Assembly (NCBI GenBank): GCA_030037885.1
Contig: JASHPU010000164.1
Span: 1-46,171 of the forward strand
Source: Xanthobacteraceae bacterium
GTDB lineage: Bacteria; Pseudomonadota; Alphaproteobacteria; Rhizobiales; Xanthobacteraceae
DNA: 46,171 bases
Direction: 5' to 3'
Part shown: in pieces, positions 17,241 through 45,420 of the stretch
Layout of the letters: each line of letters opens with the position of its first letter
Numbering within the stretch: the stretch's first letter is position 1
Notes under the pieces: generated by a model
What the model was told of the DNA's origin: nothing
The model's input: the letters and a program-made list of their open reading frames with translations, nothing else
The model's database searches: none
Program-made: the position numbers and the translations under genes

Positions 17241-17764
17241 AACCGTGGCGCGGCACCGCGATTGCAGGCCTAGCCGGTGCCGCGGCGCTCGGCTTGGCGG
17301 CATGCGACAACATGGCCAATCAGCCGAAGCTCAATCCTTACGAACTGCCATACGGCGCGCAGACAAATTGGCCGGTAACGCCGCCGCCGCACGTCGTCGC
17401 GCGCGACGAGCCTGAGCATCCGCCGCCGGCGCCGCCGGTCACCATGGCGTTGCTCGAGCGCGGCCGGCAGCGCTTCGACATTTATTGTTCGCCGTGCCAC
17501 GGCCGCTTCGGCGACGGCAACGGCATGATCGTGCAGCGCGGGTTTCCGCGCCCGCCGTCCTATTACAGCGACGCGCTGCGCAATGCGCCGAGCCAGCATT
17601 TCTATGACGTGATCACCCACGGCTACGGCGTCATGTACTCCTATGCGGGCCGGGTCGAGCCGGCCGACCGCTGGGCCATCGTCGCCTATATCCGCGCGCT
17701 GCAGGCGAGCGCCGGCGCGACCGTCGCCGACGTGCCGCCGAACCAACGGAGCGCGCTGCAATGA
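17237..17764 (+). CDS. actE: Alternative Complex III subunit ActE, monohaem cytochrome c lipoprotein
   Basis: A 175-residue lipoprotein: lipobox LAAC with the acylated Cys23, a Pro-rich linker (about 45-70), then a class I cytochrome c domain with CSPCH at 84-88 and a likely distal Met in GYGVMYSYAG. ActE is the monohaem subunit through which ACIII passes electrons to its oxidase. The GTG start at 17237 is set by the GTGA overlap with actD and by a GAGGAGGT ribosome site directly upstream. Confidence 0.92.
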   Translation: MKPWRGTAIAGLAGAAALGLAACDNMANQPKLNPYELPYGAQTNWPVTPPPHVVARDEPEHPPPAPPVTMALLERGRQRFDIYCSPCHGRFGDGNGMIVQRGFPRPPSYYSDALRNAPSQHFYDVITHGYGVMYSYAGRVEPADRWAIVAYIRALQASAGATVADVPPNQRSALQ

Positions 17765-18861
17765 GGAGCGAGACCCGATGGTTCGCGTCCGCCGCGGCGC
17801 TCGGGGCGCTCGGCATTGTCGGTTGCGTCGTCGGCGCCATCATCGATCCGGCCGCATTTTGTCGAGCGTGGTTGTGCAGCTATCTGTTCTGGCTCGGCCT
17901 GCCGCTCGCCGGCGTCACGCTCGTTCTGGTGCACGACCTTTCCGGCGGCGATTGGATGGCGACGGCGCGTCCGTCGCTCGATGCGGCGATCGCCACCATG
18001 CCGCTGGCGAGCCTCGCCGGCATTTTGGCGTTCATCGGGCTTCCGTCGCTGTACGGCTGGACCCATCCGCCGTCCGATCTCGGCAATGTCTTCTATCTCA
18101 ATCCCGCTGCTTTCTTCATCCGCTACGCGGTCTATGTCGTGCTGTGGAATCTGCTCGCGGCGTATGCGCTGTGGGGTCCGCGCGCCGGCCGGCTGCCGAT
18201 CGCGCCCGGACTCTCGTGGATCAGCGGCCTCGGCCTCATCGTGCTTGCCTTTTCGGCAGGCTTTGCCTCGATCGACTGGATTCTGTCGCTCGAGCCGAAA
18301 TTCTGGTCGTCGGTTTTCACCTATGCGCAAGGCGCAAGCTGGTTCAACACCGGCATGGCCGTCGTGCTCTTGACCGTGGCGCTGTTTGGTTGGCCGGGCG
18401 ACGAGCGCCGGCGGCAGATGATCGACCTGTCGCAGATCATCTTCGCCACCACAATCTTCTGGGCTTACCTCGAATTCATGCAGTTTCTGATCATCTGGGA
18501 AGAAAACCTCAGAACCGAGATCCCGTGGTATTTGAAGCGCCTCGATTCGGCGTGGCAGCCGGCGATCTACGTCTCGGCCGTATTCGGATTCATCGTACCC
18601 TTCTTCGTGCTGCTGTGGGCGCCGAGCAAGCGCAATCGCGCCGCCGTCGCAATCGTCTGCGTGTCCATTCTGATCAGCCGGCTCGCCCACACCTGGCTCC
18701 TGGTCATGCCGGAATTCACGGCGCCGACGCCGTTCTGGCTCGACGTTGCGGCGATCCTGGCGCTCGGCGGCGCCATGGTGCTGTTGTTTGCCTTCGGCTT
18801 GCGTTACGCGCGCCAACCCGCGCCGGCCGGCGCCCCGATCTGGACGGCGGATCATGGCTGA
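17761..18861 (+). CDS. actF: Alternative Complex III subunit ActF, NrfD-like membrane protein
   Basis: A 366-residue integral membrane protein with about ten helices, the second NrfD-like subunit of ACIII, structurally similar to ActC but shorter. Characteristic stretches include SIDWILSLEPKFWSSVF and FAYLEFMQFLIIW-like sequence (here WAYLEFMQFLIIWEENL). No cofactor motifs, as expected. ATGA overlap with actE; its last 8 bases overlap the next gene. Confidence 0.92.
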   Translation: MRSETRWFASAAALGALGIVGCVVGAIIDPAAFCRAWLCSYLFWLGLPLAGVTLVLVHDLSGGDWMATARPSLDAAIATMPLASLAGILAFIGLPSLYGWTHPPSDLGNVFYLNPAAFFIRYAVYVVLWNLLAAYALWGPRAGRLPIAPGLSWISGLGLIVLAFSAGFASIDWILSLEPKFWSSVFTYAQGASWFNTGMAVVLLTVALFGWPGDERRRQMIDLSQIIFATTIFWAYLEFMQFLIIWEENLRTEIPWYLKRLDSAWQPAIYVSAVFGFIVPFFVLLWAPSKRNRAAVAIVCVSILISRLAHTWLLVMPEFTAPTPFWLDVAAILALGGAMVLLFAFGLRYARQPAPAGAPIWTADHG

Positions 18862-26168: not shown

Positions 26169-26188
26169 TCGGGCGATCATCTCGTCCT

Positions 26189-26302
26189 GTCATTCCGGGG
26201 CGCCGCGTAGCGGCGAACCCGCAATCCATATCCCCTGTACTGGATCCCCTGTACTGGGCTTATGGATTCCAGGTTCCTCGCTTCGCTCGGCCCCGGAATG
26301 AC
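26189..26302. repeat. REP-like palindromic element, copy 1
   Basis: A 114-base element bounded by perfect 12-base inverted repeats GTCATTCCGGGG (26189-26200) and CCCCGGAATGAC (26291-26302), with an inner inverted pair AATCCATA (26223-26230) and TATGGATT (26261-26268). Its core holds a 14-base tandem duplication (TCCCCTGTACTGG at 26231 and again at 26245). A related element is found at 44792-44938. Both lie just after gene ends. This kind of nested CATTCCGG palindrome is common in Bradyrhizobium-like genomes. Confidence 0.8.
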
Positions 26303-26433
26303 GAGTCAGCGTTTGGTTTTCCCGCGCAACCTAACAACGGGATGTTGCTGCGAGCCGTTGGCATCGCTGCGCTCGGCGCGATAGATTGCGCGCCCGCGCC
26401 ATCTGGCGCGCGTACAAATCGGAGACACGCGTC

Positions 26434-31705: not shown

Positions 31706-34033
31706 ATGCCCCATTCGTCTTTCCGGCGGGACTGGATCACCAAGCCGATCTTTCGCTTGGCGCAGCACGCCTTGCCGCGGCTTTCCGACACCGAGCGCGA
31801 AGCCATCGAAGCCGGCGACGTGTGGTGGGACGCCGAGCTGTTCACCGGCAATCCCGACTGGAGCAAGCTCCTTGCCTTCGCGCCGGCACAACTGTCGGAC
31901 GAGGAGCAGCAATTCCTTGCCGGCCCGGTCGAGGACCTGTGCCGCATGGTCGACGAATGGAAGATCAATTGGGAATTGCGCGACCTGCCGCCGGAGGTCT
32001 GGGGTTTTTTGAAGGAGAAAAAATTCTTCGCAATGATCATTCCGAAGGAATATGGCGGTCGCGGCTTCTCGGCCTACGCTCATTCCGAAGTGATCCGCAA
32101 ACTCTCGTCGCGCTCGATCAGTACTGCCTGCACTGCCATGGTGCCCAACTCGCTCGGCCCGGGCGAACTCTTGGTGCAGTTTGGCACCAAGGAGCAGCAG
32201 GCCTATTGGCTGCCGCGGCTGGCGAACGGCGAGGAAATTCCCTGTTTCGGCCTGACCAGTCCGGAAGCCGGATCGGACGCCGCCGCGATGACCGATTCCG
32301 GCGTGGTATGCCGTGGCCGCTTCGAAGGCCGCGACGTGCTCGGCATCCGGCTCAATTGGCACAAGCGCTACATCACGCTCGGGCCGATCGCCACGGTGAT
32401 GGGCCTTGCGTTCAAGCTGCACGATCCGGACCACCTCATCGGCGACCGCGACGAGGTCGGCATCACTCTCGCTCTGGTCCCGACACATCTTCCCGGAATC
32501 AGCATCGGCCGGCGCCACCTGCCGGCGATGCACGTGTTTCAGAACGGCCCGAACTGGGGCCGCGACGTGTTCATCCCCATGGACTACGTGATCGGCGGTG
32601 CCGCGCAGGCCGGCAAGGGCTGGAAAATGTTGATGAGCGCGCTCGCCGCCGGCCGCGGCATTTCGCTGCCGTCATTGTCGGCTGCCGGCGCGGCCTTCAC
32701 CGCCCATGTCAGCGGCGCCTACGCGGGCATCCGCGAGCAATTCCACGTCGCGATCGCGCGCTTCGAGGCGATCCAAGAGCGCCTCGGCCGCCTGGCGGCG
32801 ACCGCTTACCTGCTCGACGCCGCGCGCCGCATGACCTGCGCGGCGCTCGACGCCGGACACCATCCGGCCGTCATCACCGCCATCATGAAAGCGCAGGCCA
32901 CCGAGCGCATGCGCATTTCGGTCAACGACGCCATGGACGTGCACGGCGGCAAGGCCATCATCGAGGGGCCGCTCAATTATCTCAGCAGCCTCTATCGCGG
33001 CGTGCCGATCGGCATCACCGTCGAGGGCGCCAATATCATGACCCGCAGCCTCATCCAATTCGGGCAGGGCGCGATCCGCTGCCATCCTTATCTGTTGCAG
33101 GAGATGATGGCGCTCGAAGACGCCGAAAGCGGGCGTGGTCTCGAAGCTTTCGACGCCGCTTTCTGGGGCCATGTCGGCCACAGTTCCGTCAACGCGCTAC
33201 GCGCCTGGGGGCGCGCCTGGACCGGCGGCCTGTTCGCGCCGGCGCCGGCCGCCGGGGCGGCGCGCAAATTCTACCGGCAGCTCGGCCGCTATGCGGCGGC
33301 CTTCGCGCTCGCCGTCGACGTCGCGTTGCTCACGCTCGGCGGCGGCCTCAAGCGCCGGGAGATGCTGTCGGCGCGCTTCGGCGACATTCTCTCCGAGCTT
33401 TATCTGTCGAGCGCGGCGCTCAAGCGCTGGAACGACGAAGGCAGGCGGATTGAAGATTTTCCGCTGCTCGAATGGTGCATGCAGGCAAGCTTGGCCACCG
33501 TCGCGGTGCGCTTTGACGAGATTTTCGCCAATTTCCCGATCCGTCCGGTCGGCTGGCTGTTGCGCTTCTTCATCCAGCCGTTCGGGCCGCGGCGCCGCGG
33601 GCCTTCCGACCGCGTGACCGCGCGCTGCGCCGCCATCGTTACGGCGCCGGGCGCTGCGCGCGACCGCCTCGTCGCGGATCTATTCCATCCGCCGCAGAGC
33701 GAGAAACACAACGGCCTGGCGCTGCTCGAGCGCGCGTTCGCCATGGTCGCCGCGGTGCAGCCGATCCGCGACCGCATGCACGCGGCGCGCGTCCGCGACA
33801 TCGATCAGGCGCTCGAGCAGCGCACCATCACCGCGGACGAGGCCGCGCAGTTGAAAGAAGCGGCGGACGCCGTGGCGGCGGCCGTCGCCGTCGACGATTT
33901 TGCGCCGGAGGAACTGACCGGCCGCGACGCCTTTCATCAAGGAGACGAATCATCAGCGACATTCCAAGCGACGCCTCCCCAAGCGACGCCGGACGAATTT
34001 CCGCTCCGCTTTCCGCCGGCCGCGGCGGAGTAA
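31706..34033 (+). CDS. fadE: Acyl-CoA dehydrogenase FadE
   Basis: A 775-residue FadE-type acyl-CoA dehydrogenase, the first step of beta-oxidation. The core runs from FAMIIPKEYGGRGFSAYAHS through the FAD-binding CFGLTSPEAGSDAAAM and ends with the FadE signature VEGANIMTRSLIQFGQGAIR. The C-terminal DUF1974-type region follows to about residue 745. The last 26 residues (from 750) are Pro/Thr/Ala-rich and lie over the start of the thiolase gene. A C at 33954 turns what would be a TGA stop (33953-33955) into TCA; with G there the protein would end at residue 749 with the normal ATGA overlap. GGGGA ribosome site upstream of 31706. Confidence 0.9.
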   Translation: MPHSSFRRDWITKPIFRLAQHALPRLSDTEREAIEAGDVWWDAELFTGNPDWSKLLAFAPAQLSDEEQQFLAGPVEDLCRMVDEWKINWELRDLPPEVWGFLKEKKFFAMIIPKEYGGRGFSAYAHSEVIRKLSSRSISTACTAMVPNSLGPGELLVQFGTKEQQAYWLPRLANGEEIPCFGLTSPEAGSDAAAMTDSGVVCRGRFEGRDVLGIRLNWHKRYITLGPIATVMGLAFKLHDPDHLIGDRDEVGITLALVPTHLPGISIGRRHLPAMHVFQNGPNWGRDVFIPMDYVIGGAAQAGKGWKMLMSALAAGRGISLPSLSAAGAAFTAHVSGAYAGIREQFHVAIARFEAIQERLGRLAATAYLLDAARRMTCAALDAGHHPAVITAIMKAQATERMRISVNDAMDVHGGKAIIEGPLNYLSSLYRGVPIGITVEGANIMTRSLIQFGQGAIRCHPYLLQEMMALEDAESGRGLEAFDAAFWGHVGHSSVNALRAWGRAWTGGLFAPAPAAGAARKFYRQLGRYAAAFALAVDVALLTLGGGLKRREMLSARFGDILSELYLSSAALKRWNDEGRRIEDFPLLEWCMQASLATVAVRFDEIFANFPIRPVGWLLRFFIQPFGPRRRGPSDRVTARCAAIVTAPGAARDRLVADLFHPPQSEKHNGLALLERAFAMVAAVQPIRDRMHAARVRDIDQALEQRTITADEAAQLKEAADAVAAAVAVDDFAPEELTGRDAFHQGDESSATFQATPPQATPDEFPLRFPPAAAE

Positions 34034-35313
34034 GGCGGCGGGTTTACATCGTCGACGGCAGCCGCACGCCGTTCATCAAGGCGCGCGGCCGGCCCGGCCC
34101 GTTCACTCCGGTCGATCTCGCCGTGCAATGCGGGCGGCCGCTCCTTCTGCGCCAGCCGTTTGCCCCCGACGCCTTCGATCTCGTGATCCTCGGCTGCGTC
34201 AACGTCATCGCCGATGAAATGAATCCAGCGCGCGTTGCCGCACTGCGGCTCGGCATGGGCGAGGCCATGACGGCGTTCACCGTGCAGATCAATTGCGGCT
34301 CCGGCATGCAGTCGATTGACACCGGCTACCGCACTATTCGCGATGGCGCGGCCGACCTTATCCTCGCCGGCGGCGCCGAAGCGCTGAGCCATGCGCCGCT
34401 GGTGTTCAGCCGCGGCGCGGTCAATTGGTACGCGCGGCTGTTCGGCGCGCGCACGCTCGGCGCCCGGCTGTCGGTGCTGCTCGGCTTGCGCCCGGCATTT
34501 TTCAAGCCGGTGGTCGGGCTCGAACGCGGCCTTACCGATCCGATCACCGATCTCAACATGGGACAGACCGCGGAGCTCGTCGGCCATCTGTTTCACGTCA
34601 CGCGCCGCGATGCCGACGAATACGCCGCCGAAAGCCAGCGGCGATTAGCGGCTGCGCAACACGACGGCTTTTTTGCCGATGAGATCGAACCGGCTTTCGC
34701 GCGCGATGGCACCGTGTACGACCACGACGACGGCGTGCGGCCCGACAGCACCGCCGAATCGCTCGCCAAGCTCAAGCCGGCATTCGAACGGCCGTGGGGC
34801 AAAGTGACGGCAGGCAACAGCTCGCAGATCACCGATGGCGCCTCGTGGGTCATTCTCGCTTCCGAGGACGCCGTCACGCGGCATAAGCTCACGCCCAAGG
34901 CGGTGATCGTCGACAGCGAATGGGCGGCGCTCGATCCCTCCGTCATGGGACTCGGCCCGGTCTATTGCTCGACTCCGTTGTTGCGCCGCCACCAGCTTAC
35001 ACTCGACGACGTCGAGCTATGGGAGCTGAACGAAGCCTTCGCGGCGCAAGTGTTGGGTTGCCTTGCCGCCTGGCAGGATGACGAATTCTGCCGCGACGCG
35101 CTCGGCCTTGCCGGCGCAGCGGGCCGCATCCCGCGCGAGCGGCTCAATGTCGACGGCGGCGCCATCGGCGTCGGTCATCCGGTTGGCGCCAGCGGCAACC
35201 GCATCGTGTTGCATCTGGTCAACGCCATGAAGCGGCTCGGCAAAAAGCGCGGCATCGCCACCGAATGCATCGGCGGCGGCCAGGGCGGCGCCATGTTGAT
35301 CGAAGCGGTGTGA
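33952..35313 (+). CDS. fadI: Acetyl-CoA acetyltransferase (thiolase), apparent ATC start
   Basis: A thiolase of about 453 residues catalysing the last step of beta-oxidation. Nucleophile Cys115 is in QINCGSGMQS; NEAFAAQ, GHPVGASG and CIGGGQGG complete the active site. The fold needs the N-terminal strand VYIVDGSRTPF, which lies before the first normal start codon (GTG 34123), so translation must begin upstream. The only good site is AAGGAG (33939-33944), 7 bases before ATC at 33952, giving a natural-looking SDIPSD N-terminus. I therefore propose ATC as start, or a mutated or misread ATG. It overlaps the fadE 3' end by 82 bases. Symbol fadI by context. Confidence 0.8.
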   Translation: MSDIPSDASPSDAGRISAPLSAGRGGVRRRVYIVDGSRTPFIKARGRPGPFTPVDLAVQCGRPLLLRQPFAPDAFDLVILGCVNVIADEMNPARVAALRLGMGEAMTAFTVQINCGSGMQSIDTGYRTIRDGAADLILAGGAEALSHAPLVFSRGAVNWYARLFGARTLGARLSVLLGLRPAFFKPVVGLERGLTDPITDLNMGQTAELVGHLFHVTRRDADEYAAESQRRLAAAQHDGFFADEIEPAFARDGTVYDHDDGVRPDSTAESLAKLKPAFERPWGKVTAGNSSQITDGASWVILASEDAVTRHKLTPKAVIVDSEWAALDPSVMGLGPVYCSTPLLRRHQLTLDDVELWELNEAFAAQVLGCLAAWQDDEFCRDALGLAGAAGRIPRERLNVDGGAIGVGHPVGASGNRIVLHLVNAMKRLGKKRGIATECIGGGQGGAMLIEAV

Positions 35314-35323
35314 CGGCGCGACC

Positions 35324-37471
35324 ATGACCAGCACGCCCGCCCGCAAACCAGCCCTCGCCATCCTCGGGAAGCGCAACCGCGAGCTTGGCCCTTTCGCGCG
35401 CGACGACGCCCGGCAGGAATCCGGACCGTGGGCGCATTGGCGCATGCGCACCGACGAAGACGGCATCGTCTGGCTCGTGTTCGACAGGAAAGACTCCAGC
35501 GCCAACACGTTGTCGGAACCGGTACTGGCCGAACTCAATGACATTCTCGGCCGGCTCGAACGCGATGGCCCGCGCGGCGTCGTCATTCGCTCGGCCAAAC
35601 CCGGCGGCTTCATTGCCGGCGCCGACATCGCGCAATTCCGTGGCGTCACCGACGTCGCCGAGCTGGAAATGCTGCTGTCGCGCGGCCACGCGGTGCTCGA
35701 CCGGCTCGACCGCCTGCCGGCGGTAACGGTCGCGGTCATCCACGGCTATTGCCTCGGCGGCGGCTTGGAACTGGCGCTCGCCTGCGACTGCCGCATCGCC
35801 GTCGATGATGCGCGCTTCGGCTTTCCCGAAGTGCTGCTAGGGCTGCATCCCGGGCTCGGCGGCACGGTGCGGCTGCCGCGCCTGATCAATCCCTTGGCCG
35901 CGATGACGATGATGCTGACCGGCCGCACCGAGCGCGCCCGCCGCGCGCGCCGGCTGCGCCTGATCGATGCGGTGACGCAGGAGCGCCATGTGCGCGCCGC
36001 GGTTCGGGCCGCCGTCAACGGCGATTTGCGCCGCAGCAAGCAGGATGTCACCGGCACGCTCCTCAACAGCGGGCCGGCGCGCCGGCTCCTGGCGCGACGC
36101 ATGGCAAGCGAAGCCGCCAAGCGCGCGCCGCGCGCACATTATCCCGCGCCCTACGCGTTGATTGATCTTTGGGTCGAGCACGGCGGCGACGCCGAAGCCA
36201 TGCAGCAGGCGGAGATCGCCTCGTTCGCCAAGCTTTTGGTCGGCGGCACTGCACAAAATCTGGTGCGGGTGTTCTTTCTGCGCGAGAATTTGAAAAAGCT
36301 CGCCGGCGGCGAGTGGCCGGGCCGGCACGTGCACGTCATCGGCGCCGGCACCATGGGCGGCGACATCGCTGCGTGGTGCGCCTGGCAAGGCCTGTTCGTT
36401 ACGCTCGCCGACACCAATCGCAACGCGATCGGCGGCGCCATCACGCGCGCCGCCGAGCTTTACGGCAAAATCGGCCGCGACAACAGGCTGCGCGTACGCG
36501 ATGCGCTCGACCGCCTGATCCCGGACTTGCGGGGCGACGGGGCGGACAACGCCGACCTCGTCATCGAGGCCGTGCCGGAAAATCTCGATCTCAAGCGCAA
36601 GATCTTTGCCGCCGTCGAGCCGCGCATGAAGCCGGCCGCGATCCTCGCCAGCAATACGTCGAGCATTCCGCTCGAAGCGCTCCGCGAAAATCTGGCACGG
36701 CCGCAGCGCTTGGTCGGCATTCATTTTTTCAATCCGGTGTCGCGCATGCAGCTCGTCGAGGTGGTCGGCCAGGATCTGGCCGCGCCGGATGTGCTGGCCG
36801 AGGCGCGCGCCTTCCTCGGGCGCATCGACCGGCTGCCCGCACCGGTGAAGAGTGCGCCGGGCTTCTTGGTCAATCGTGCGCTGACGCCGTATCTGCTCGA
36901 AGCTTTGGTCATGCTCGATGCCGGCATGAAGAAGGAAGCCATCGACAAGGCGGCAAAAAATTTCGGCATGCCGATGGGGCCGATCGAGCTGGCCGACGAA
37001 GTCGGGCTCGACGTCTGCCTGCACGTCGCCGACACGCTGCGCGGCAGCTTGCACCGCGACATGCCCGAGGCGCCGCAATGGCTCAAGGACAAGGTCGCCA
37101 AAGGCGAGCTCGGCAAGAAGAGCGGCAAGGGCCTTTATGATTGGAAGGACGGCCGCGCCGTCAAATCCCATGAAGATGTCGTGCCGGCCGCTGATGCCGC
37201 CGACCGCCTGATCCTGCCGATGCTCGATGCCTGCGTCACCTGCCTGCGGGAAGGCGTCGTCGCCGACGAGGCGGTGCTCGACGGCGCCATGATTTTCGCC
37301 ACAGGATTCGCGCCGTTCCGGGGTGGACCGCTGCACTACGCCCGCACGCGTGGCTTCGCCGACATACACGCCACGCTCGAACGGCTCGCCGCGCAATATG
37401 GGCCGCGTTTTGCGCCCGATCCCGGCTGGGATAGCCTGCCTGATCCGACGCCGGCTGCAGCCGCGCTCTAA
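35324..37471 (+). CDS. fadJ: Multifunctional 3-hydroxyacyl-CoA dehydrogenase/enoyl-CoA hydratase FadJ/FadB type
   Basis: A 715-residue two-domain enzyme. The N-terminal crotonase domain has both catalytic glutamates, Glu149 (GGGLELALA) and Glu169 (GFPEVLLGLHPG), 20 residues apart as in FadB. The NAD-dependent dehydrogenase domain has GAGTMGG (340-346) and catalytic His467 in GIHFFNPV, with FLVNR after it. With fadE and the thiolase 10 bases upstream it completes a three-gene beta-oxidation operon. About 35 N-terminal residues are a poorly conserved extension. Confidence 0.92.
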   Translation: MTSTPARKPALAILGKRNRELGPFARDDARQESGPWAHWRMRTDEDGIVWLVFDRKDSSANTLSEPVLAELNDILGRLERDGPRGVVIRSAKPGGFIAGADIAQFRGVTDVAELEMLLSRGHAVLDRLDRLPAVTVAVIHGYCLGGGLELALACDCRIAVDDARFGFPEVLLGLHPGLGGTVRLPRLINPLAAMTMMLTGRTERARRARRLRLIDAVTQERHVRAAVRAAVNGDLRRSKQDVTGTLLNSGPARRLLARRMASEAAKRAPRAHYPAPYALIDLWVEHGGDAEAMQQAEIASFAKLLVGGTAQNLVRVFFLRENLKKLAGGEWPGRHVHVIGAGTMGGDIAAWCAWQGLFVTLADTNRNAIGGAITRAAELYGKIGRDNRLRVRDALDRLIPDLRGDGADNADLVIEAVPENLDLKRKIFAAVEPRMKPAAILASNTSSIPLEALRENLARPQRLVGIHFFNPVSRMQLVEVVGQDLAAPDVLAEARAFLGRIDRLPAPVKSAPGFLVNRALTPYLLEALVMLDAGMKKEAIDKAAKNFGMPMGPIELADEVGLDVCLHVADTLRGSLHRDMPEAPQWLKDKVAKGELGKKSGKGLYDWKDGRAVKSHEDVVPAADAADRLILPMLDACVTCLREGVVADEAVLDGAMIFATGFAPFRGGPLHYARTRGFADIHATLERLAAQYGPRFAPDPGWDSLPDPTPAAAAL

Positions 37472-44788: not shown

Positions 44789-44791
44789 TAC

Positions 44792-44938
44792 ATTCGTCAT
44801 TCCGGATCGCCGCGAAAGGGCGAGTCCGGAATCCATAATTCCTGCGCTGGGGTTATGGATTCCGGGCTCCTCGCGGAGCTTGTCATCGGGCCGGCCACTT
44901 CGGGCCGGACCCGTTGGCTTGGCCCCGGAATGACGAAT
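44792..44938. repeat. REP-like palindromic element, copy 2
   Basis: A 147-base element with perfect 14-base ends ATTCGTCATTCCGG (44792-44805) and CCGGAATGACGAAT (44925-44938), and an inner perfect 13-base pair CCGGAATCCATAA (44826-44838) and TTATGGATTCCGG (44853-44865). It shares the CATTCCGG ends and AATCCATA core with copy 1. It fills the space between two convergent genes, beginning 3 bases after one stop and ending on the first base of the other stop triplet. Confidence 0.8.
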
Positions 44939-45420
44939 TATTCTTCCTTATATCCATACCCCGGCACGTTGCCGGTCGCGCCGTAATATTTGTACGGCAG
45001 AAATTTGCCCGACATGGTGATCTTGACCCGGTCGCCTTTCGGATCGGGCTGGCGCTCGAGCTTAAGGTCGAAGTCGATCGCCGACATGATGCCGTCGCCG
45101 AATTCCTCTTCGATCAAGGCTTTGAGCGCCGGACCGTTGACCATGACCAGCTCGTAGAAGCGGTAGATGAGCGGATCGGTCGGCGGCATCGGCGCGCCGC
45201 GATATGGCGTCTCGTTGAGCAGCGCCTGCTCGCTCTTGGACAGGCCGAACAGCTCGGCGGCCTTGGCGACCTGCGGCTTGGTCAGCTTCATCTGGCCGAG
45301 CACCGCGCCGGTGATCAGCATCGGCGACATGCCGCCGATCTCGCTGCAGATGTATTTCCAACTCCAGCCCTTTTCGCGCTTGATGCCGAGCATTTTTTCG
45401 GTGAGTTCGGCCCGCGTCAT
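44938..45420 (-). CDS. cynS: Cyanate hydratase (cyanase) CynS
   Basis: A 160-residue cyanase that converts cyanate and bicarbonate to ammonia and carbon dioxide. The catalytic residues Arg87, Glu90 (PLIYRFYELV) and Ser113 (GIMSAIDFDL) sit 9 positions before E. coli Arg96, Glu99 and Ser122 throughout. N-terminal helical dimer domain then the catalytic domain, ending GKFLPYKYYG. The ATG at 45420 is chosen for its GGAGG site (an in-frame GTG lies 2 codons upstream). No cyanate transporter is adjacent. Confidence 0.97.
   Translation of the reverse strand: MTRAELTEKMLGIKREKGWSWKYICSEIGGMSPMLITGAVLGQMKLTKPQVAKAAELFGLSKSEQALLNETPYRGAPMPPTDPLIYRFYELVMVNGPALKALIEEEFGDGIMSAIDFDLKLERQPDPKGDRVKITMSGKFLPYKYYGATGNVPGYGYKEE

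Follow-up and report, generated by a model that had tools for sequence, protein, structure and literature searches.

The thiolase operon and its start region

The window, a stretch of 46,171 nucleotides from a Xanthobacteraceae bacterium whose genome is assembled to 4.67 Mb, encodes an operon with the gene order fadE, thiolase and fadJ, all on the plus strand. The upstream gene, fadE (31706..34033), encodes an acyl-CoA dehydrogenase of 775 aa with ACDH_C and acyl-CoA dehydrogenase domains. It is followed by the gene of a PRK08170-type acetyl-CoA C-acetyltransferase (thiolase), which occupies 33952..35313 and has 453 residues when counted from an ATC codon, and by an ATG-initiated gene for a fadJ-like multifunctional protein of 715 aa (35324..37471). 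The thiolase has been assigned to the PRK08170 type by its match to NF006030, which scores 724 bits where the cut-off is 593 and covers profile positions 9-433 of 434. The GC3 of the thiolase (0.82) resembles that of FadE (0.84) and FadJ (0.83), and this likeness in codon usage indicates neither decay nor low expression; a drop in codon adaptation, such as a weakly expressed gene might show, was not seen.

The thiolase frame is open from a TGA at 33514. The six bases at 33951-33956 are CATCAG, with C at 33954, and the in-frame ATC at 33952..33954 (+) is preceded by the Shine-Dalgarno (SD) sequence AAGGAG at 33939..33944 (+), with 7 nt between the two. A second ATC (33949-33951) is situated directly 5' of it. 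The letters and positions of the SD and of the ATC at 33952, first described in the initial annotation, have been confirmed on re-reading, and so has its statement that no ATG, GTG or TTG precedes the conserved N-terminal core. The first canonical codon of the frame is a GTG at 34123..34125 (+), which is located inside the Thiolase_N domain, so that a start there would drop the first strand; no ATG, GTG or TTG able to start the conserved thiolase is available. The fadE frame continues across the ATC for 26 more residues, from TCA at 33953 to GAG at 34028-34030, and is closed by TAA at 34031-34033, a run-on that had been noted correctly before. The two reading frames thus overlap by 82 nt (33952..34033, +), comprising the last 26 codons of fadE, whose tail and stop position are kept within the genus. 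A coupled junction of the ATGA or TGATG kind is absent here, as neither position 33952 nor the fadE stop (34031-34033) offers a canonical start.

A local control was made with the 32 ORFs of the window that are inferred to be coding. The first canonical codon is found more than 30 codons into the frame in 10 of them; family matches were obtained for seven of these ten, and the thiolase is the only one whose match begins before the first canonical codon.

Other features of the window

A palindromic dispersed repeat of 151 bp with the terminal inverted repeats ATTCGTCATTCCGG...CCGGAATGACGAAT is found at 44790-44940. It folds with -98.8 kcal/mol (z -9.0), has at least 82 match rows in its own genome (40 of 228 candidates scored, reverse self-matches included) and many matches in genomes of the same genus. 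No Rfam family has been assigned to it at the gathering score, and the repeat is MITE- or REP-like. Another short stretch, at 26181-26304, also matches many places in same-genus genomes. A tRNA-Arg (cct) called by ARAGORN on the minus strand at 17644-17738 is below the Rfam tRNA gathering score and overlaps the inferred coding ORF 17608-18861; the call is perhaps false.

Survey of the thiolase start in relatives

The thiolase has been searched in samples of close relatives, of the family, the order, the class and the phylum and in contigs of named genomes, and 60 gene starts have been added from the genomes. The survey comprises 152 parsed loci that share 52% identity or more across the first 120 residues of the core and have a sufficiently long upstream flank; the window itself is one of them, and some named and unnamed records possibly represent the same organism. 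In the family, 107 genomes have a match and about 95 have been parsed. The unparsed ones are mostly of the Bradyrhizobium type (code g48), besides one genome with a partial gene (G199) and one in which the retrieved region missed the gene start (G102). A start was taken as canonical when ATG, GTG or TTG occurs within the 114 nt that precede the core or at its very beginning.

A canonical start is present in 127 of the 152 loci and absent in 25. By an SD rule that was set after the sites had been seen, all 25 loci of the latter group have an in-frame, SD-linked near-cognate codon, which is ATC in 24 and ATA in one (L152). The Shine-Dalgarno of L153 is only GGAG with 9 nt spacing; under a stricter 5-mer rule this locus and L152 are left out and the ATC is retained in 23/25. 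In the same 25 loci an SD-linked ATC is found in neither of the other two frames (0/25 each). Among the 127 canonical loci the in-frame count is 7 and the counts in the other frames are 1 and 7; five of the in-frame cases (L006, L033, L117, L116 and L156) have the conserved site, and the other two, L054 and L214, are either ambiguous cases or unrelated to it.

The site, with ATC or ATT, is kept beside a later canonical codon in seven loci (L006, L033, L114, L116, L156, L176 and L177). The remaining 120/152 loci, Bradyrhizobium types included, have no such site and have a canonical ATG, GTG or TTG. An ATG or GTG is likewise available in 19/19 further records, 16/16 from the phylum search and 3/3 from plasmids. 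No paper on an AUC start in a thiolase is among those listed from the open-licence literature.

The aligned site and the wobble base of fadE

The 25 loci without canonical start and the seven with the site beside a canonical codon have been combined into an alignment of 32 loci. L176 and L177, whose ATC is more than 115 nt from the core and which the script had labelled canonical, were re-read and added. L114 is counted by an ATT at 6 nt from the SD, which is preceded by an ATC at shorter spacing. Dropped from the alignment were L117 (identical to L033), L001 (a second copy of the window), L054 (GTG directly 3' and ATG 5' of the ATC), L210 (ATA directly 5' of an ATG) and L214 (ATC 4 nt behind GGAGG and 75 nt 5' of an ATG).

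The SD-linked codon is ATC in 30 of the 32 loci, ATT in L114 and ATA in L152. The ATA of L152 (genome G418) and the ATC-ATT of L114 (genome G165) are natural substitutions among near-cognate codons at the SD-linked position. The SD core is nearly fixed (G at -11 in 30, G at -10 in 27, A at -9 in 24 and G at -8 in 26 of 32), and the preceding codon varies (GTC 9, GCC 6, ATC 4, ACC 4, CCC 3, GTT 3, GAC 2 and GCA 1). The second codon is mainly GCC (13), GCA (6) or AGC (6). No stop is encountered in the 641 in-frame codons between the start and the core, against 14/641 in upstream stretches of equal length in the same frame. L115, from a genome in one contig, has an in-frame TAA followed directly by AGGAG and the ATC, with 11 codons left to the core. 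The median energy of the duplex of SD and anti-SD is -8.5 kcal/mol for the AUC type (n=33, with L054, L210 and L117 included) and -5.8 kcal/mol for the canonical loci (n=119, L176 and L177 among them), with a Mann-Whitney p of 1.7e-10 that ignores the kinship of the sequences.

The fadE frame overlaps the codon in 20 of the 32 loci, ends before it in 10 and was not located in the 1.5 kb upstream of two (L064 and L158); the end of the gene upstream of L064 resembles an azurin-type protein when read by eye. Given these 12/32 loci, in which fadE stops short of the ATC or is not found, the overlap does not explain the ATC, and a constraint of the fadE frame as its cause has been rejected. Where the frames overlap (20 loci), a fadE codon TCA or CCA ends in the A of the ATC or ATT, at a four-fold degenerate position. 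This wobble base is A in 20/20, whereas A makes up 7.4% of 1173 four-fold degenerate third positions in the more upstream part of fadE in the same loci. With loci so related a naive probability is meaningless, but the direction is clear, and it is the thiolase frame that selects the A of ATC at the wobble position of fadE.

Comparison of the loci thus shows the conserved site, its frame and, in several lineages, its position directly after stop codons. The same comparison shows selection on the A of the ATC at the fadE wobble position and an interval from ATC to core that is free of stops.

Distribution and history

The 32 sites are distributed over 10 family codes of Alphaproteobacteria, eight in the same order (f1, f5, f14, f35, f36, f37, f38 and f47) and two in the same class (f91 and f189), and two named MAG records, Alphaproteobacteria AP_8 (L033) and BRH_c0 (L064; Gammaproteobacteria by its label). 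The records of Bradyrhizobium, Nitrobacter and Afipia are canonical, with ATG at the core position. It had been suggested that a single base removed an ATGA overlap at the SD site. This is contradicted by the canonical relatives, which mostly have their ATG about 26 codons further on, aligned with 34030 of the window; an ATG at the SD site itself is found only in L154/L155.

A tree of 92 full-length proteins requires at least 7 changes between the states with and without the site, so the 32 loci are not a count of independent events. Many branches of this tree are weakly supported, L054 was scored as having the site and L176 and L177 as canonical. Gain and loss are not distinguishable on it, and no ancestral state is claimed.

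Candidate explanations

Taken together, the PRK08170-type thiolase most likely starts on AUC. The best explanation, which we hold with high confidence from the comparison of genomes, is that the AUC at 33952-33954 would be used by the ordinary initiator tRNA with the aid of the SD, as an old conserved trait and not as damage. The proposal that AAGGAG marks initiation and that the ATC is the likely start has been borne out.

A dedicated or relaxed initiator tRNA reading AUC efficiently, by which the codon would be neutral and not regulatory, is unlikely. The initiator anticodon arm is linked to initiation fidelity, and 19/25 genomes searched, namely that of L266 (G000:C245:5220-5241) and 18 others, have an initiator-type arm AGG-CTCATAA-CCT, with AGG/CCT for GGG/CCC and without the usual three G-C pairs. 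However, the same arm is found in the ATG-using genomes G061, G066, G067, G068 and G144; being common to AUC-type and ATG-type genomes, it does not explain the difference in start. A pattern of the GGG..GAT..CCC type, as an initiator with GAU anticodon would have, matched 5 places in 4/20 genomes, none of them called as a tRNA by ARAGORN, and for initiator-type stems with either GAT or CAT anticodon in the 20 genomes there were 9 matches, with an ARAGORN tRNA in 0/9. The ordinary initiators, whose stem is AGG/CCT, escaped the GGG/CCC-type pattern as well, and an odd initiator with a stem other than the GGG/CCC type is conceivable.

The ribosomes that leave fadE at 34031-34033 could instead restart nearby, for example on GTA at 34030, by termination and reinitiation. 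This GTA aligns with the ATG of the Bradyrhizobium-type relatives, which use a TGATG overlap, L006 has a GTG at the aligned position, and most overlapping loci have the fadE stop at or near this place. A start on GTA or another codon at the fadE stop is nevertheless not favoured and is considered very unlikely, as several of the 25 loci have no GTA near the core (for example L064, L148, L149, L151, L153 and L160), fadE ends earlier or is absent in 12/32 loci, and the conserved SD-ATC and the selection on the wobble A would be left unexplained.

Sequences like the SD stimulate frameshifting in dnaX and prfB, and an internal SD could in the same manner make ribosomes slip from the fadE frame into that of the thiolase, which is open in the window for 516 nt upstream of 34030, to give a fusion protein. 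Such a programmed frameshift is not favoured and appears highly improbable: in-frame stops stand before the ATC, at 5 codons in L115 and L149 and at 3 codons in L153, fadE ends before the site in 10/32 and is not found in 2/32, and no conserved slippery sequence was seen by eye among the printed sites.

A private mutation or a base-calling error at 33954, the two readings offered in the initial annotation, might be suspected in a metagenome assembly of 309 contigs and 90.5% completeness, where G at this base would give a canonical start, but both are refuted beyond reasonable doubt by the relatives, since the same ATC is found in separately assembled genomes of the genus (L004, L005, L006 and L007), with 93-97% identical protein, in distant families and in other taxa whose genomes are assembled to a single contig (L115 and L176). 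Of the further suggestion that an alignment of the junction might show C in relatives together with another conserved upstream start, the C has been found and the other start has not.

Proposed initiation on AUC and the possible role of IF3

In the proposed AUC initiation, the strong and well-spaced SD would hold the ribosome and place the AUC in the P site, where the initiator tRNA would pair with the A and U of the codon and be mismatched at the third base. IF3 would tend to reject such a complex, making initiation inefficient and dependent on IF3, and the strong ribosome-binding site would offset the IF3-discriminated codon, as at the starts of infC or sigR. The outcome would be a thiolase level below those of FadE and FadJ, or one tied to the ratio of IF3 to ribosomes as for infC. 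The site suggests that thiolase production is restrained as early as translation initiation. By analogy with the known cases, it is plausible that the AUC lowers the thiolase relative to FadE and FadJ, and we infer a low or IF3-responsive output. For fadJ, an ATG, GTG or TTG is on offer in 29/29 loci in which the downstream gene is in reach, there being none within the flank of L007; such availability is a weaker test than mapping of the fadJ start.

The infC gene, which encodes IF3, starts on AUU, AUA or AUC and is autoregulated by its product. At the conserved start position of infC in the same genomes, ATT has been read by eye in 16, ATA in 8 and ATC in 2 loci, accounting for 26/26 readable loci, with L247 and L248, two pieces from one genome, set aside; in many of these loci an ATG, GTG or TTG follows further on. 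The infC of the window genome (L227) has an ATT behind TAGGAG at this position. As infC has near-cognate starts in the same genomes, a single factor would act on both infC and the thiolase.

According to a review, IF3 discriminates against all start codons but AUG, GUG and UUG (PMC4611024). Streptomyces sigR has a GTC start that is repressed by IF3 and sets the protein ratio in the operon (PMC5472188). The S. aureus genes ccpN, cvfC1 and citZ, which combine conserved AUU or AUA codons with a strong SD, give about 10-30% of the AUG output, with about 10% in poor medium and, for ccpN, up to 30% in rich medium (PMC13009471). Initiation on AUC at the thiolase could be very weak, because weak third-base pairs are poorly used or give no product in a reconstituted E. 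coli system, as a survey of codon-anticodon pairs found (PMC10158994).

Comparison with known near-cognate starts

The thiolase site shares with infC the AUH codon, the SD in front of it, the wide conservation and the genomes in which it occurs. Three traits of the infC class have been found for the thiolase, namely the lack of any ATG, GTG or TTG from which the conserved protein could start, an AUU, AUC or AUA at proper distance from a strong SD, and retention of the near-cognate codon in evolution. The two differ in that infC encodes the discriminating factor itself and forms a feedback loop, whereas the thiolase is a catabolic enzyme. The likeness to sigR lies in a non-canonical start within an operon with a strong SD; sigR sets the stoichiometry with respect to a neighbouring gene, and its start is misannotated in databases (PMC5472188). 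The sigR start is GTC, is confined to Streptomyces in this account and has been shown experimentally, in contrast to the AUC of the thiolase, which is found in at least 10 family codes on comparative evidence.

The S. aureus genes ccpN (AUA), cvfC1 (AUU) and citZ (AUA) resemble the thiolase in their conserved near-cognate starts and strong SD, and citZ is an enzyme of central metabolism too. They differ in belonging to Firmicutes and in the codons AUA and AUU, and the citZ start is stated for strains of the NCTC 8325 lineage (PMC13009471). The canonical PRK08170-type junctions of Bradyrhizobium and others have the same order of fadE, thiolase and fadJ and the same protein family, but the ATG at the core position overlaps the fadE stop there, mostly without a well-placed SD. 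For E. coli pcnB, Binns and Masters (2002, cited in PMC13009471) reportedly described an AUU start by which translation is limited; near-cognate starts are common to pcnB and the thiolase, pcnB being an RNA-processing enzyme with AUU.

Implications

A gene caller restricted to ATG, GTG and TTG would shift the start of this thiolase into the domain (GTG 34123) or miss its N-terminus. On the comparative evidence, the putative conserved AUC start in a beta-oxidation operon joins the small class of near-cognate starts, with a notable breadth and metabolic setting. Outside infC, few bacterial genes are known in which an IF3-discriminated start has persisted over long evolutionary distances, and with a conserved AUC start in a catabolic enzyme such regulation would reach into central metabolism. 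The AUC may serve either regulation or a fixed brake. A tentative proposal, which we regard as less probable than its negation, is that fatty-acid breakdown in many Alphaproteobacteria could be tied to the fidelity of initiation, the output of thiolase relative to FadE and FadJ tracking the ratio of IF3 to ribosomes together with infC. If this is true, IF3 would be a growth-state regulator of a catabolic pathway, and starts of this kind may form an unannotated regulatory layer in the Alphaproteobacteria.
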